DNA of 58,866 bases, from contig CAJFQC010000013.1 in assembly GCA_904418845.1 (NCBI GenBank), positions 1 to 58,866 of the forward strand, written 5' to 3'. The translations under genes and the position numbers were made by a program. The stretch is from an uncultured Ruminococcus sp. (lineage in GTDB: Bacteria; Bacillota; Clostridia; Lachnospirales; Lachnospiraceae). Of this stretch, positions 7,157-58,866 are shown piece after piece; position 1 is the stretch's first letter; the number at the start of each line of letters is the position of its first letter. Under the pieces are notes generated by a model. The model worked only from the letters and a program-made list of their open reading frames with translations. It was not told the DNA's origin and did no database searches.

Positions 7157-8176
7157 TCACAGGCTCAATCTCTGTGTATCGTTTTCTGTGTGGGACTGAA
7201 TCTTTTTCATGATGATATCACAGGCGTCCATCCCTTTATAGATCACAAAATGTTCAATGGTAGTGAGTGACACTCTTTTCACCTTCGCGAACAGTGTATT
7301 GTCGCATCCCATTACAGATATGTCTCCCGGAACTTTATATTTCATATCATGCAGGGCATCCATAATACCGAAGGCGATCATATCATTCAGTCCTACGATG
7401 GCAGTCAGATCCTGCCGCTCTTCCATAAGCTCCCTCGTCAGGTCATATCCGATCCGGTATTCCGAATCAATTCCCGGCACATCCTTGTCAATCTGCTCAT
7501 CCGCCGCCCTAATCGCTACGTGCCCGCCCAGTCCTGCATTTTTAAACTCCTTTAAAAATCCCTCTACCCTTCTGGAACGCTGCTTCTGCCTTGCAGTGAG
7601 AGGCGGCGCGATATATGCGACATCCCTGTGTCCCAGCTCCAGCAGATGTCTTGCCATCAGCCGTCCCAGCTTCGAATTGTCAAGGTCTACCGCATCCACA
7701 TTCAGCCGTTCATCCTGGTTGTTTATAACCACCACCGGAACCTTTTTCGAAATCTCTTCTACCTGTCCCATAAAACACTGGCCCGGATTGCACATGTAGA
7801 TGATACCGTGAGGATTCAGTGAAGAGATCATCTTAAGATACCGCTCCTCCAGCTTCAGATCCCTCTGAGTGTTGCATACAAAGATTCCAAAGCCCTGCTC
7901 GGCAGCCCGGGATTCGATTCCCTGAAGCAGCATAACATAATAGGGATTCGTCAGATTCGGGCTGATGACCACAAGAAGCTTTTCCCTTCGCTCCTCCTGG
8001 CGCTTCTTTCTCCTGGGAAGCACATATCCGAGCTCTGCCGCCGCCTCTTCTACTCTGCGGACGACATCCTTAGAAAAAGATACATTATATTTCTTATTCA
8101 GCACCATCGACACGGTAGCCTGAGACACTCCCGCCCGCTCTGCCACATCTGATGATGTCACCTTTTTTCCTGCCAT
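7157..8176 (-). CDS. LacI-family repressor, probably frameshifted at its C-terminus
   Basis: A 339-residue LacI/GalR-type regulator. The helix-turn-helix is at residues 6-25 (TSSDVAERAGVSQATVSMVL), followed by the hinge region to about 60 and a periplasmic-binding-protein-like sugar-sensing domain. The start at 8176 follows GAGAGG. The frame stops after HTENDTQRLSL, but the next frame continues with VEYEPKVVVRG, the normal family ending. A one-base shift close to position 7170-7190 therefore removes about 25-40 residues. Upstream of the talC-transketolase operon on the same strand, it likely controls that operon through AAGCGCTT. The effector cannot be deduced. Confidence 0.85.
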   Translation of the reverse strand: MAGKKVTSSDVAERAGVSQATVSMVLNKKYNVSFSKDVVRRVEEAAAELGYVLPRRKKRQEERREKLLVVISPNLTNPYYVMLLQGIESRAAEQGFGIFVCNTQRDLKLEERYLKMISSLNPHGIIYMCNPGQCFMGQVEEISKKVPVVVINNQDERLNVDAVDLDNSKLGRLMARHLLELGHRDVAYIAPPLTARQKQRSRRVEGFLKEFKNAGLGGHVAIRAADEQIDKDVPGIDSEYRIGYDLTRELMEERQDLTAIVGLNDMIAFGIMDALHDMKYKVPGDISVMGCDNTLFAKVKRVSLTTIEHFVIYKGMDACDIIMKKIQSHTENDTQRLSL

Positions 8177-54382: not shown

Positions 54383-55669
54383 ATGTTAGATATTAAATTT
54401 TTAAGAAGTAACCCGGAAATTGTAAAACAGAATATAAAAAATAAATTTCAGGAAGAGAAGCTTCCACTCGTTGACGAGGTGATCCAACTGGATCAGAGAA
54501 ACCGGGAGATTAAACAGGAAGTAGAGGCGCTTCGCGCTGAGAAAAACAAAGCTTCCAAAGAGATCGGCGCGATGATGGCTCAAAAAAAGTTTGAGGAAGC
54601 AGAAGCGCTTAAGAAAAAGGTGGCAGAAAACGCGGGAAGGATTGATGAACTTTCCACAGAGGAAAAAGAGGTGGAGGAAAAGATCAGGAAGATTATGATG
54701 ATCATTCCGAATATCATTGATCCGTCTGTGCCGATCGGAAAAGACGACAGTGAGAACATAGAGATTGAGAGGTTTGGCGAACCCGCAGTTCCTGATTTTG
54801 AGATTCCGTATCACACAGAGATTATGGAATCATTTAACGGTATTGACCTTGACAGTGCAAGGAAGGTTGCAGGAAATGGATTTTATTATCTGATGGGAGA
54901 TATCGCGAGACTTCATTCAGCGGTGATTGCGTATGCCCGTGATTTTATGATTAACAGAGGCTTCACATACTGTGTTCCTCCTTTTATGATACGAAGCAAT
55001 GTGGTAACAGGTGTGATGAGTTTTGCAGAGATGGATGCTATGATGTATAAGATAGAGGGAGAGGATCTCTATCTTATCGGTACAAGCGAACACTCCATGA
55101 TCGGAAAGTTCATTAACACACAGCTTACAGAAGACCAGCTTCCACAGACACTGACGAGCTATTCTCCGTGCTTCCGCAAGGAGAAGGGTGCACACGGCAT
55201 TGAAGAGAGGGGAGTATATCGGATTCATCAGTTCGAGAAACAGGAAATGATCGTTGTATGCAAACCTGAGGAAAGTATGGACTGGTACGAAAAACTCTGG
55301 CAGAATACGGTAGATCTGTTCCGCTCCATGGAGATTCCGGTGCGAACTCTTGAGTGCTGTTCAGGTGATCTGGCGGACCTTAAAGTGAAGTCTGTGGACG
55401 TAGAGGCATGGTCTCCGCGCCAGAAGAAATATTTTGAGGTGGGGAGCTGCTCCAATCTGGGTGACGCTCAGGCAAGAAGGCTCGGCATACGCGTAAAAGG
55501 GGAAAACGGAAGCTATTTTGCGCATACATTGAATAATACAGTCGTAGCGCCGCCAAGAATGCTTATTGCATTTTTAGAAAATCATCTTCAGGCAGACGGT
55601 TCTGTTACCATACCAGAAGTGTTAAGAGTGTATATGGGCGGCAATGATAAAATTACGCCGAAAAAATAG
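54383..55669 (+). CDS. serS: Seryl-tRNA synthetase
   Basis: A 428-residue class II synthetase. The N-terminal coiled-coil arm (about 28-110) grips the long variable arm of tRNA-Ser. Catalytic motif 2 is SPCFRKEKGAHGIEERGVYRIHQFEK and motif 3 is NNTVVAPPRMLIAFLENH. The start is 12 nt after the DUF4446 gene. It charges tRNA-Ser with serine in the cytosol. Confidence 0.97.
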   Translation: MLDIKFLRSNPEIVKQNIKNKFQEEKLPLVDEVIQLDQRNREIKQEVEALRAEKNKASKEIGAMMAQKKFEEAEALKKKVAENAGRIDELSTEEKEVEEKIRKIMMIIPNIIDPSVPIGKDDSENIEIERFGEPAVPDFEIPYHTEIMESFNGIDLDSARKVAGNGFYYLMGDIARLHSAVIAYARDFMINRGFTYCVPPFMIRSNVVTGVMSFAEMDAMMYKIEGEDLYLIGTSEHSMIGKFINTQLTEDQLPQTLTSYSPCFRKEKGAHGIEERGVYRIHQFEKQEMIVVCKPEESMDWYEKLWQNTVDLFRSMEIPVRTLECCSGDLADLKVKSVDVEAWSPRQKKYFEVGSCSNLGDAQARRLGIRVKGENGSYFAHTLNNTVVAPPRMLIAFLENHLQADGSVTIPEVLRVYMGGNDKITPKK

Positions 55670-55686: not shown

Positions 55687-56562
55687 ATGCACCAATATTT
55701 AAAAGCGATCGGATTCGATAATATCAACACAAAAAACAATTTAAAAAAACTTTTGAAAACTATTCAAAAGGAGTTCACTCACCAGACGATTATCTCATAC
55801 AGACCGGGTGAAGACTTCTGTGAGATGAGAAAAGAATACGGGCAGTGTATTGGTATTTCTCTGTGCGGCGAATTGGATGAACAGGAAAATTTTCAACCGG
55901 ACTATTATTTTCCTTATTTTGAGGGGAGCGGGATCAGCACTTACGCGGAGATCGCTGTGGAGAGAAAGATTGAGAAGGAACAGTATGTAGGAATGTGCGA
56001 GGATTCTAAGATTGGGATCAGTCTCATTTTTACCCTTCAGAATGGCCTTGAATATATGAGAGAGCGACAAGCCGGGTTTGCCGCGGATATTACCACATCT
56101 GTTACGTTGTCCGGCCTGGCGTTGTCGGGAATGATTCTTTTACCCGTTGTTAAAGATGAGAGGCATCTAAAAAGTGATCAGGAAGCTTCGGACAATAGAA
56201 AAATGCTGCTGAATGCGGCGAGAAACGGGGATCAGACAGCAATTGAAACGCTGACATTAGACGATATTGATATATATTCTCAAGTATCTCGACGTTTGGA
56301 AAGTGAAGATGTATTTTCTATTGTGGATACTTATTTCATGCCTTATGGTGTGGAGTGTGATTTGTACTCCATTATGGGAGAGATACTGGCAGTGCGCAGG
56401 AGAAAGAATGTGGCGACCGGGATGGAGTTGTATCAGATGAAGCTCAATGTCAATGAACTCCAGTTCGATGTGTGTGTTCCTGCAGATGAGGTAATGGGAG
56501 AGCCGGACATCGGACGGCGGTTTAAAGGGACGATCTGGCTCCAGGGATATATCAATTTCTGA
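55687..56562 (+). CDS. DUF3881-like cytoplasmic protein
   Basis: A 291-residue protein with no membrane segment. It resembles the DUF3881 family of Lachnospiraceae, commonly encoded after serS. Visible segments are MHQYLKAIGFDNINTKNNL at the start, GISLIFTLQNGLEY and SGLALSGMILLPVVK in the middle, and VPADEVMGEPDIGRRFKGTIWLQGYINF at the end. It begins 17 nt after serS. The function is not known. Confidence 0.75.
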   Translation: MHQYLKAIGFDNINTKNNLKKLLKTIQKEFTHQTIISYRPGEDFCEMRKEYGQCIGISLCGELDEQENFQPDYYFPYFEGSGISTYAEIAVERKIEKEQYVGMCEDSKIGISLIFTLQNGLEYMRERQAGFAADITTSVTLSGLALSGMILLPVVKDERHLKSDQEASDNRKMLLNAARNGDQTAIETLTLDDIDIYSQVSRRLESEDVFSIVDTYFMPYGVECDLYSIMGEILAVRRRKNVATGMELYQMKLNVNELQFDVCVPADEVMGEPDIGRRFKGTIWLQGYINF

Positions 56563-56648: not shown

Positions 56649-56677
56649 TTGAGAATTTGGGGAAAACGTGGTATATT
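56649..56677 (+). promoter_or_regulatory. Original tRNA-Arg promoter
   Basis: TTGAGA (56649-56654), a 17-nt spacer and TATATT (56672-56677) lie just before the first tRNA-Arg half. It probably served the native tRNA-Arg gene. The only intact copy now lies 525 nt downstream, beyond the two other halves. Confidence 0.7.
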
Positions 56678-56715
56678 ATTTAATGCGTCCGGGATAGATG
56701 CGCTCAATAATATAT

Positions 56716-56755
56716 GTCGCTATAGCTCAGTTGGATAGAGCGACCGCATCCTAGG
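56716..56755 (+). pseudogene. tRNA-Arg(CCU) 5' half, remnant 1
   Basis: Forty bases match the 5' part of the intact tRNA-Arg at 57203: acceptor GTCGCTA, D arm GCTC/GAGC and the anticodon stem and loop up to CCT. Three differences lie in the D loop and anticodon arm (CGCATCCTAGG). The match ends abruptly in the anticodon loop and the sequence that follows is unrelated. It is non-functional as a tRNA. Confidence 0.9.
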
Positions 56756-56984
56756 AATAAGCTGAGGCGTTCCCCTAAGAGATATTGTAAAAAATGCTCA
56801 GGGTTCTATTCAAATTTGAAAATGCAAAAAGTGATAAGAAGGCATTCCCTTATTTGGGGAATACTCTGATGTCACCATAATCAAAAATTTGTAGATTGGC
56901 AGTCATAAAAGACTGATAATCTTATATATGGTCGCCGGGTGAAAAACTCGAGAAACCCAGTAAAATCAAGGGTTTGCGGCATGT

Positions 56985-57024
56985 GTCTTCGTAGCTCAGC
57001 TGGATAGAGCACTCGCCTCCTAAG
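56985..57024 (+). pseudogene. tRNA-Arg(CCU) 5' half, remnant 2
   Basis: Forty bases form a tRNA 5' half with acceptor GTCTTCG, D arm GCTC/GAGC and anticodon loop CTCCTAA, ending CCTCCTAAG. The acceptor and anticodon-stem bases differ from the host tRNA-Arg, so the half was probably supplied by another source such as an integrated element. No 3' half follows. Confidence 0.88.
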
Positions 57025-57089
57025 GGCTTCTTAGAGCAATCGCCTAACTTGCTTTTTCTAGCTGAGTTTTATAGATAAAATTGAATAAT

Positions 57090-57129
57090 GTCCCAGTACC
57101 TCAGTAGGATAGAGGGTCCGCCTCCTAAG
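57090..57129 (+). pseudogene. tRNA-Arg(CCU) 5' half, remnant 3
   Basis: Forty bases with acceptor GTCCCAG, D arm CCTC/GAGG and anticodon loop CTCCTAA, again ending CCTCCTAAG. The D-arm pairing is conserved by compensating change (CCTC with GAGG). It breaks at the same point as remnant 2, and unrelated sequence follows. Confidence 0.88.
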
Positions 57130-57202
57130 AAAGTGTTGAAACATACACCCCGGAGGAAAAGGAAAAAGGTAACAAGTAAAATTAAATATAGATTTTCTAA
57201 AT

Positions 57203-57279
57203 GTCGCTATAGCTCAGCTGGATAGAGCGACCGCCTCCTAAGCGGTAGGTCGGAGGTTCAAATCCTCTTAGCGACGCCA
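57203..57279 (+). tRNA. tRNA-Arg (anticodon CCT)
   Basis: A complete 77-nt tRNA with CCA encoded. The acceptor GTCGCTA pairs with TAGCGAC; the D arm is GCTC/GAGC; the anticodon stem ACCGC/GCGGT encloses CTCCTAA; the T arm is GGAGG/CCTCT with TTCAAAT. Discriminator G. It decodes AGG. Its 5' half is nearly identical to remnant 1, and its anticodon loop is the break point of all remnants. A terminator follows. Confidence 0.97.
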
Positions 57280-57286
57280 AAAACTC

Positions 57287-57330
57287 CGCCGAAAACGTTG
57301 ATTTTTCAAGGTTTTCGGCGTTTTCTTTTT
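57287..57330 (+). terminator. Terminator after tRNA-Arg
   Basis: A 10-bp perfect stem CGCCGAAAAC/GTTTTCGGCG with a 14-nt loop is followed by TTTTCTTTTT. Confidence 0.9.
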
Positions 57331-57361: not shown

Positions 57362-57531
57362 GATTAGCAGGAAGCATTTTTGCTAATCGGAAGTGACCAT
57401 GGTGAACTCGAACGATTGATTTTTGTCACCGATTAGCTTGCTAATGATTAGCAGAAAATTTTCGATTTTTGCTAATCAAACGGCCTCTCCTGCTAATTTG
57501 CCGAAAAATCATGCAAAAAACCTTGCTAATT
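57362..57531. repeat. GATTAGC/GCTAAT repeat array beside tRNA-Arg
   Basis: Eight copies of GATTAGC or its inverse GCTAAT(C/G/T) lie within 170 nt, at about 57362, 57382, 57431, 57440, 57446, 57471, 57492 and 57525, in both orientations and irregularly spaced. The position, right next to a tRNA used as an integration site, suggests arm-type sites of a tyrosine integrase. The stretch 57331-57598 has no gene. Confidence 0.75.
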
Positions 57532-57650: not shown

Positions 57651-57773
57651 ATGAGAGAAAAAACATTTCATGTTTATGTGGATAGCCATGATAGAAGCCT
57701 TTTGCTTCAAAGTCTTGTAGAATTGAAAAATCTGTTAATCAATGCACCAGTTAAGAAGCTAAAAATCAGTTGA
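57651..57773 (+). CDS. Small mobile-element ORF, probably internally deleted
   Basis: A 40-residue ORF with a strong promoter and ribosome site. It begins MREKTFHVYVDSHDRSLLLQ and ends LINAPVKKLKIS. The first half looks like small proteins common on clostridial integrative elements, whose middle (a segment of about 20 residues) and end are separated here, as if an in-frame deletion joined LVELKNLLI to the tail NAPVKK. This comparison is from memory and uncertain. Possibly non-functional. Confidence 0.55.
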   Translation: MREKTFHVYVDSHDRSLLLQSLVELKNLLINAPVKKLKIS

Positions 57774-57831: not shown

Positions 57832-58251
57832 ATGGATGAAAGAGAAAAGATTATTCGATTATGGTTTGATATGTGGCTTAATCAACAAGATTTAGGAATT
57901 GATGATATCTTTACAGACGATCTCATATATATTGAAAGCTGGGGGCCTAAATACGAAAATAGAGAACTGTTAAAGCACTGGTTCAATGAATGGAATACTC
58001 GTGGAAAAGTTCTTATATGGGACATTAAACAATTTTTCCATAAGGACAACCAAACCATTGTGGAATGGTATTTCAAAAATAAAATGAATACTGGAAATTT
58101 TGAAGAGTTTGATGGGATTTCTTTAGTTGTATGGACAAAAGACAACAAAATAAAAGAACTAAAAGAATTTGGATGTAATCTAAATAACTATAATCCATAC
58201 GAAGAAAGCGATATTCCCCAATTTAGAGATGAGAAAGTGAATTGGTTTTGA
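57832..58251 (+). CDS. NTF2-like (SnoaL-type) domain protein
   Basis: A 139-residue soluble protein with the pattern of the NTF2-like/SnoaL fold: a leading helix EREKIIRLWFDMWL, DDIFTDDLIYIESWGPKYENRELLKHWFNEW and a strand WYFKNKMNTGNFEEFDGISLVVW. Members bind small ligands or catalyse varied isomerisations. The start follows TTGGAGG. It has its own terminator and AT-rich composition and lies among element remnants, so it was probably acquired with them. No substrate is inferred. Confidence 0.8.
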   Translation: MDEREKIIRLWFDMWLNQQDLGIDDIFTDDLIYIESWGPKYENRELLKHWFNEWNTRGKVLIWDIKQFFHKDNQTIVEWYFKNKMNTGNFEEFDGISLVVWTKDNKIKELKEFGCNLNNYNPYEESDIPQFRDEKVNWF

Positions 58252-58330: not shown

Positions 58331-58530
58331 GTTTGCCCAGCATGGGCAAACTCTAACGGGTGAAAGTCCCGAACATACCCTGATAGTGGGAAGTGTATAG
58401 CTAAACGGCAAGGGTGTTCATCGCGAGGTGAAATCTGAAAGAAGCCGTAGGCAAACCTCTGGTCTGACGGACAGAAATCACATAGAAGGCAGTTCTCCGA
58501 GAGATAAGCTTGCAAAAGAAAGTAAAGTCT
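58331..58530 (+). mobile_element. Group II intron 5' fragment
   Basis: About 200 bases resemble the 5' end and domain I of a bacterial group II intron. The start GTTTGCCCAGCATGGGCAAAC is a variant of the usual GTGCGCCC...GGGCGCAC hairpin. It is followed by GGGTGAAAGTCCCG, GCAAGGGTG, GAAATCTGAAAGAAGCC, GGCAAACCTCTGGTCTGA and CACATAGAAGGC. The rest of the ribozyme and the reverse transcriptase gene are missing, replaced by unrelated coding sequence. It cannot splice. Confidence 0.8.
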
Positions 58531-58535
58531 AATAA

Positions 58536-58866
58536 CTATCACATATCAAAAACTTCTATGAATACTCCCTCTCCCCCAACTGCCCATTTATTCCCGAATG
58601 GAAGAAACAGGGCGAGGATTTCTATCGTGAGAAAATAGAGAGCCTGCAATGGGGACGAGATGTATTCCTTCCCTATCTGGAACAGCATAAGACTCTGACG
58701 CCAGAGGACGAGAAGCTCTTTGCGGAAATCATGGCAACCGAAAATGACTGGTTCCGTGTCCCGGAGAATAAGAATACAAGCCTTGCCGGGCGTTTGGTGG
58801 ACTTCATTGAGGAAGTTGATCCATATGAGTATCAGGACACCTTGGAAGTTGGAGAAACCAAAGAGG
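58536..58866 (+). pseudogene. Decapitated element ORF fragment, running off the window
   Basis: An open frame without start signal continues to the window end. A TAA precedes it at 58533-58535. From 58548 it reads KNFYEYSLSPNCPFIPEWKK, then REKIESLQWGRDVFLPYLEQ, ATENDWFRVPENKN and DFIEEVDPYEYQDTLE. It resembles internal parts of large multi-domain proteins carried by clostridial integrative elements. The 5' part was lost where it joins the truncated intron. What lies beyond is not visible. Confidence 0.6.

Follow-up and report, generated by a model that had tools for sequence, protein, structure and literature searches.

Stacked tRNA-Arg(CCU) 5' halves in a Ruminococcus contig: a probable serial landing pad for nested elements that bring their own replacement tRNA

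We analysed a 58,866-nt stretch of contig CAJFQC010000013.1 (GenBank assembly GCA_904418845.1) from an uncultured Ruminococcus sp., hereafter the window, in which three 5' halves of tRNA-Arg(CCU) genes stand upstream of one intact gene (Table 1). A preliminary description, made from the sequence alone, had reported these four copies, and their positions were confirmed. The breakpoint was located in the anticodon loop in all three halves, as described; halves 2 and 3 terminated exactly at the core CTCCTAAG (57017 and 57122), and the core of half 1 had decayed. The acceptor strands of halves 2 and 3 (GTCTTCG and GTCCCAG) were indeed unlike that of the host gene, pairing with the host 3' half at 5/7 positions, versus 7/7 for half 1 and the intact gene. 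The native promoter assigned earlier was also found, facing half 1 at approximately 500 bp from the working tRNA gene. A similar GGTATATT-type promoter motif was seen by eye upstream of the first half in 16/20 genomes compared, the exceptions being G057, G013, G028, and G035. The other three copies in the window showed 76, 76, and 93% identity to the reference copy over 42 nt, and in an order-level sample the two-half pattern occurred in 9/392 genomes, including the window's own, versus none for the reversed pattern. Because of these identities and this difference in frequency, the stack is not a chance arrangement.

The locus was compared with those of relatives by a unit search across 61 genomes, with loci fetched for the 30 best matches only. 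At least two halves were present in at least 10 of the 61 genomes (the second half of G033 was cut by the contig end), and each spacer together with the half that follows it formed a recurring unit. Five spacer types were defined post hoc, with unit lengths of 113 (A), 105 (B), 272 (C), 134 (D), and 113 bp (E); the window's C-like spacer and one G021 spacer were left untyped. Each type was followed by a single kind of half in 16/16 cases in relatives: A by GTCGCTA (4/4), B by GTCCCAG (4/4), C by GTCTTCG (3/3), D by GTTTCTG (3/3), and E by GTTCCTG (2/2). The half preceding a spacer varied, and unit A followed four different halves. When 156 units of a wider set were compared, recurrence was seen for 29 spacer starts (24 nt); 24 of them had a single following half (69/80 units), and 24 had more than one preceding half. 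In addition, positions 56840-57024 of the window shared 84% identity with a stretch of the one-contig genome G028 that runs up to and into its complete tRNA. The preliminary description was right in proposing layered, site-specific integration at the anticodon loop, with a foreign 5' half arriving on each element. Same-unit tandems, D-D and C-C, were also observed (L128 10119-10420; L129 528-1185), which may reflect re-integration or recombination between copies.

The 3' half was compatible with the last 5' half wherever the final tRNA was complete. The left end of element A, through the 3' half and the terminator, was 97% identical in G019 and 96% identical in G057, a member of another family, with different preceding halves. 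The complete tRNA of element B was visible in G034, where this element lies inside the tRNA of element E; the E 3' half and flank were the same in G002, where they are intact, and in G034, where they are displaced. The preliminary description had assumed that the element's 5' half restores the gene with the host 3' half. This part did not hold: the elements of relatives bring a complete tRNA, and the host gene stays split. A host/element chimera as the working tRNA was not encountered in relatives, in which each element brings its own 3' half and flank along and the 3' half of the host gene ends up displaced.

We propose that the stack is very probably a serial landing pad for nested tyrosine-integrase elements, at least one of them an integrative and conjugative element (ICE) of the Tn916 superfamily, each bringing a complete replacement tRNA-Arg(CCU). 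An element would carry this tRNA, with its own 3' half and flank, near its left end, usually followed by GCTAAT-type repeats and the body. Its integrase would recombine the core CTCCTAAG of the attachment site attP with the identical octanucleotide that the resident tRNA-Arg(CCU) has in its anticodon loop. The resident gene would be split, its 5' half remaining at the left and its 3' half moving to the far right end of the element, and the element's own tRNA, approximately 50-230 bp inside the left end, would take its place. Because an intact core is kept inside that tRNA, the next element could insert into it. The outcome would be a Russian-doll nest, in which the 5' halves are stacked at the left by arrival, the oldest first, and the displaced 3' halves lie kilobases to the right, presumably in strictly reverse order for stacks of at least three. 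If the window shares this history, nesting would give the order of arrival as native gene, C-like element, element B, and element A, and the working tRNA would be that of A. As the tRNA-Arg(CCU) pattern had a single match in the window's own genome, where a diverged second copy could escape it, the element-borne gene would be the only recognised tRNA-Arg(CCU) of this genome.

Table 1 Features of the tRNA-Arg(CCU) locus in the window.
Feature	Position	Strand	Remark
serS	54383..55669	+	Lies left of the native tRNA-Arg(CCU) site in the genus; 15/20 fetched loci have the orthologue on the same stretch
DUF3881 gene	55687..56562	+	Immediate left neighbour of the native site; Pfam PF12997, 398 bits; 15/20 fetched loci
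Native tRNA promoter, TTGAGA-17-TATATT	56649..56677	+	Faces half 1
Half 1 (h0)	56716..56755	+	Outermost 5' half; decayed core CATCCTAGG; probably the native tRNA, split by the first integration
Left end (spacer) of first element, C-like	56756..56984	+	Assigned by comparison with relatives
Half 2	56985..57024	+	5' half (GTCTTCG) of the first element's own tRNA; split at 57017-57024
Left end of element B, 65 nt	57025..57089	+	Unit also in G031, G033, G034, and L214
Half 3	57090..57129	+	5' half (GTCCCAG) of element B's own tRNA; split at 57122-57129
Left end of element A, 73 nt	57130..57202	+	Also in G019 and G057; diverged in G021
Complete tRNA-Arg(CCU), anticodon CCT	57203..57279	+	Probably borne by element A (comparison with G019 and G057)
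Core in intact tRNA	57235-57242	+	Putative live landing site
Hairpin followed by T-rich sequence	57287..57320	+	Terminator-like inverted repeat; kept in element A copies
Eight GCTAAT/ATTAGC repeats	57363..57530	.	In element A; may be arm-type integrase sites
Start of element A body	57651..57773	+	Short frame MREKTFHVYVDSHDRS..., stop after 40 residues
SnoaL-like gene	57832..58251	+	Expected element A body; Pfam PF12680, 29.0 bits (cut-off 27)
Group II intron piece	58417..58568	+	Near contig end; Rfam RF02001, 62.9 bits

If elements are nested, displaced 3' halves are expected downstream, behind the right end of another element, and such halves were found in relatives. On a single contig of G034, the E 3' half lay approximately 25.5 kb past the intact B tRNA, behind a right end that reads ...CCGCAAGGAA directly before the core CTCCTAAG. 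This right end of element B was 99-100% identical over 138 bp in G033, G034, and G446, all of which have the B left end, and was followed by three different displaced 3' halves, of the TAGCGAC type in G033 and the CGGGGAC type in G446. It was not found in the other two of the five genomes with a B left end, G031 and the window's own genome (G000); a search of ten other genomes gave a 26-nt match in G428 and none in nine. In a search of 20 genomes, the A right end was present in G057, G433, and G447 and in part in G021, and was not found in G019 or G000. The copies in G433 and G447 were 97% like that of G057 and preceded different displaced halves. An intact tRNA inside an element end and a displaced half were seen on one contig in four relatives (G034, G057, G426, and G428).

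The genomes of 20 of the listed two-half loci were then taken as a further set; a displaced 3' half was found in 13 and none was seen in the other 7. The positive genomes included Ruminococcus sp. FMBCY1, Blautia glucerasea, Lacrimispora amygdalina, and Eubacterium coprostanoligenes. The complete genome of Ruminococcus sp. FMBCY1 showed a stack of GTGCCAA followed by GTTTCCG, with a displaced TTGGCAC 9.5 kb further on, and in B. glucerasea the displaced 3' half lay at 41 kb. In a hand-assembled table of 20 genomes, which left out the displaced half of G023 (a genome without a stack) and a chimeric gene of G445, each of the 26 displaced 3' halves had a 7/7 partner, with G-U allowed, among the broken halves in the same genome; for 24 of them the outermost half was such a partner. 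Counted per genome, the pairing was 21/21, versus a mean of 5.9 and a maximum of 13 in 10,000 permutations. The displaced halves of G446 and G447, added later, also paired 7/7 by eye.

Two further arrangements behind right ends were recorded. In G057, two displaced 3' halves (L161 5055-11481; G057:C1:636525-642980) were identical over 107 nt from the core, with 12 mismatches in the first 200, and the 6.4 kb between them encoded a cytosine methylase, an ATPase, and a reverse transcriptase; this stretch can be read as a second, differently built insertion or as a same-site duplication. In L348 (G431:C23:59083-62088), the intact tRNA and the displaced half were approximately 3 kb apart, with a right end much like those of G429 and G437, so that this element may be read as reduced or non-autonomous.

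These data also bear on the alternative that an element brings only a 5' half, which forms a chimera with the host 3' half, later deletions having joined the halves. The foreign acceptor strands of the halves would suit it, as would the many missing bodies: counting one expected displaced 3' half per broken 5' half, only 22/54 were found. Nevertheless, a different last unit comes with a different final 3' half and flank, the bodies lie to the right of the stack with the older 3' half beyond them (G034, G057, and G428), and the spacers recur as intact left ends in independent genomes. This alternative is already refuted where both ends are visible, and we regard it as very improbable overall. 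The deletions invoked in the preliminary description are not needed for the short spacing of the halves, as the whole element of approximately 25.5 kb in G034 is located on the right side of the stacked halves, with the next displaced 3' half beyond it. Loss or decay of bodies as such nonetheless seems common, given the 22/54 count.

A second alternative is that the units of 105-272 bp, each a spacer plus a 5' half, are themselves mobile and were inserted in trans, like integron cassettes. The units are cassette-like with mostly fixed content, and identical tandem units without matching displaced halves exist in G020 and G002. Insertion of a unit alone would, however, keep the host 3' half, and the observed 3' half matches the newest unit; moreover, kilobase-sized bodies with matching right ends stand between the newest and the older 3' half. 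There is thus little chance that mini-cassettes built the stacks. Units could be copied within a stack by homologous recombination.

Displaced halves were also compared with unoccupied sites. The genes to the right of the displaced half of G033 had the same order as those to the right of the single tRNA of G010 (79, 84, and 71% protein identity), and this flank partly matched G023 too. The right flank of G021 matched G023 and G013. On the basis of this gene order, the displaced halves of G033 and G021 sit on the old chromosomal flank. Genes in the outermost flanks were common to G020, G031, and G002.

A genome scan with the two-half pattern gave at least 120 matching stretches; among the 80 titles of matches listed, three name only Firmicutes, Bacillota, or bacterium, and the remaining titles we take to be all Clostridia. 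Of the 120 listed loci, 118 were parsed as arrays, L195 and L203 being unparsable, and these contained two halves in 89 cases, three in 22, four in 6, and six in 1. The six-half stack, the longest array parsed, belongs to a Lawsonibacter metagenome-assembled genome (L210), and five of its halves are of the GCCCGCG type. After setting aside 14 arrays that were cut or lacked a 3' half, 104 were scored for pairing: the last half paired with the final 3' half at 7/7 positions in 96 arrays and at 6 in 1. The stretches behind the 137 earlier halves paired at 5/7 or fewer, with 1-3/7 in 107. The half pattern also occurred in 66 viral contigs, in which 57/67 halves belonged to complete tRNAs and 10 were cut or unpaired. 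One IMG/VR contig of 58.6 kb that is classed as viral (L066) carries at 7555-7800 a two-half stack with a complete GTCCATA tRNA, and this tRNA type was also found in Blautia and Lacrimispora.

The same comparison bears on whether the stack could be a functional RNA locus, producing tRNA-half RNAs or a regulator, that resembles scars in looks only. The preliminary description had named the same three halves in distant genera without elements as the observation that would speak against integration; instead, units did recur in other genera, but with their order and number changed. In favour of such a locus, the native promoter is still directed into half 1. Set against this are the number, order, and type of halves, which vary between relatives, the decaying half 1 of the window, and the displaced partners that many halves have elsewhere. 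We therefore consider a functional RNA locus extremely unlikely. Expression of the tRNA carried by an element is presumed here, with transcription starting either in its own spacer or further upstream as read-through; the A spacer of the window contained no promoter pair under the scan rule, and the hairpin after the intact tRNA was not listed by the terminator scan of the window.

One element, B in G034, was seen whole, at approximately 25.5 kb. It encodes a MobT relaxase (701 bits, cut-off 600) and TcpF (1617 bits, cut-off 1100) by NCBIfam, and TpcC, DUF961, and FtsK_SpoIIIE above the Pfam cut-offs, the last of these marking an FtsK-like coupling protein. ArdA, a lysozyme-NlpC protein, a CD3337/EF1877-family membrane protein, and a tyrosine integrase were also present, as were two DUF961-type proteins, of which one was profile-tested, and, by reading, a sigma-like and a helix-turn-helix protein. 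Judged by sequence, this gene set is that of an ICE of the Tn916/ICESt3 superfamily. The comparison proposed earlier, of relatives for elements and for integrases whose attP contains a tRNA 5' half, yielded a whole element with an integrase; the reconstructed attP, however, shares the core only, with the whole tRNA beside it. The element of G057 encodes, by reading, sortase- and lysozyme-like proteins and ABC transporters, together with an excisionase and an integrase, and looks reduced. In the window, element A is truncated where the contig ends, 1.6 kb beyond the tRNA. The element region of the window also contains group II intron sequence, and in G057 intron-like sequence was seen by eye directly after the tRNA terminator (L111, just below 9500).

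Seven tyrosine integrases with PF00589 above cut-off were found near element ends in relatives, and such enzymes would carry out the integration. The integrase gene stood immediately within the left end and was directed towards the tRNA in elements B and E and in the last element of both G021 and G035, the copy in G035 being broken. It lay nearer the right end in G057, G034 C33, G020, and G428, and 2 kb off in G002. GCTAAT-type repeats followed the final tRNA in 9/9 stack genomes, with 2-8 in 330 nt, the two of G057 falling in its intron-like sequence. Among single-tRNA genomes they were present in 3/9 (G027, G028, and G035) and absent in 6/9, and in the wider set at least one followed 71/79 final tRNAs. 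By eye, AATTAGC-like motifs stood approximately 105 nt before some right-end cores, the GCTAAT repeats being inside the left end. The repeats are possible arm-type integrase sites. Two candidates from the window's own genome were rejected. A 30-nt match on contig C46 to the sequence upstream of half 2 was considered as an element end, and had no exact core on the printed strand and no one-mismatch core within a few hundred bases. Of 13 places with Pfam integrases, only L100 and L101 matched the two query integrases, at 22-25% identity, and none was assigned to this site.

Several observations weigh against serial nesting or fit it poorly. In the window's own genome assembly, none of the three expected displaced 3' halves was found, neither the B nor the A right end was detected, and no integrase was found in the window. 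Across the 30 stack genomes, 32 expected displaced halves were missing in a hand count; these may have escaped assembly, decayed too far for the pattern to match, or been deleted, and the single-contig genomes G057 and G426 both show their expected displaced halves. Inner displaced halves were missing in the same-type tandem stacks of G020 (D-D) and G002 (C-C). In 9/26 pairings the innermost half likewise paired 7/7, and these pairings are therefore non-discriminating. G031 departs from a simple nest: B is outermost in its stack, yet its displaced native 3' half lies behind a right end (L152) that is unlike B's and clearly related to those of G002 (L144) and G023 (L153). A comparison over 10 kb gave no matching unoccupied site for the outermost flanks in G020, G031, G002, and G034. 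With regard to the integrases, that of G440 is located mid-element, homology revealed none in the G426 and G431 elements, and a second one stands at the outermost right end in G034 C33 (L162 7639-9030), though the tRNA of E already has one beside it on C17; the intervening stretch may contain more than one element. In the larger sets, 5/29 recurring spacer starts had more than one half type, the last half scored 3 or less in 7/104 arrays (some, by eye, with a shifted or further unit), and 8/79 final tRNAs had no GCTAAT repeat. Sigma-70-like pairs were weakly enriched in the spacers, at 29% versus 16% in shuffled sequences (threshold 9 of 12, 156 spacers). Finally, the reversed 3'-half pattern had one match in 20 genomes, in G445. 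That match (G445:C46:7854; L337, position 355) is a chimeric tRNA, in which a GTTTCCG-type 5' half and a TAGCGAC-type 3' half meet at the core; core-to-core deletion of a nested body would give such a product.

The proposed landing pad resembles known systems in part. According to the passages available from two papers, which differ in describing the arrangement, Pasteurellaceae ICEs (ICEPmu1, ICEMh1, and relatives) cut tRNA-Leu in the anticodon loop (PMC6028734, PMC6861422). Either the ICE end supplies an intact tRNA-Leu in place of the disrupted one (PMC6028734), or one functional and one disrupted copy exist, the complete one at the attL terminus, with a further disrupted copy upstream of the full-length gene (PMC6861422). 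The core in the anticodon loop and the full replacement tRNA inside the element end are shared with the clostridial elements, and the principle of replacement is therefore already in print. The tRNA, the phylum, and the conjugation machinery are different, and those passages show no serial nest with ordered stacks of halves. Element B shares the MobT relaxase, TcpF, TcpC, DUF961, ArdA, and lysozyme-NlpC protein with the Tn916/ICESt3 superfamily. Tn916, as described in part of PMC4701971, integrates with low specificity and without flanking direct repeats, whereas the clostridial integrase appears site-specific for the anticodon loop of a single tRNA, and a tRNA gene is part of the element. With ordinary tRNA-gene islands, as excerpts of PMC4383910 and PMC8371274 present them, the elements share a tyrosine integrase, the anticodon-loop crossover, and a tRNA fragment at the far end. 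In such islands the attP fragment completes the host gene, unlike the core-only attP reconstructed here; by an excerpt on Islander, a 5' fragment was found in 159/3919 islands (PMC4383910). Tandem accretion of ICEs, integrative and mobilizable elements, and cis-mobilizable elements, in the portion of PMC5704250 consulted, likewise involves serial, site-specific integration at one locus and decay of older elements. In contrast, the new clostridial element is inside the old one because its target is the internal tRNA of the latter. Archaeal partial tRNA genes that arise from integration, as described in a section of PMC9897764, are a different system. In a limited search of open-licence papers, no Firmicutes ICE that targets tRNA-Arg(CCU) was reported with a full tRNA or with stacked halves, and there was no report of this clostridial family, of its link to Tn916-type conjugation genes, or of a serial nest with a readable half stack.

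Taken as a whole, it appears somewhat likely that clostridial ICEs, as a widespread class, have appropriated tRNA-Arg(CCU), so that the host's intact gene is element DNA, renewed together with its landing site at each invasion. The stack of halves would then be an ordered record of invasions in approximately 500 bp, and the tRNA both a landing site and a tie of dependency. If this is true, the order of ICE integration can be read from one short locus. It could explain why acceptor stems of tRNA-Arg(CCU) differ between close species of gut Clostridia. It would also mark ICE ends that tRNA-fragment methods may miss, because the fragment is only approximately 110 bp from the intact gene. Furthermore, it opens to test the possibility that a mobile element owns the only recognised host gene for one tRNA.
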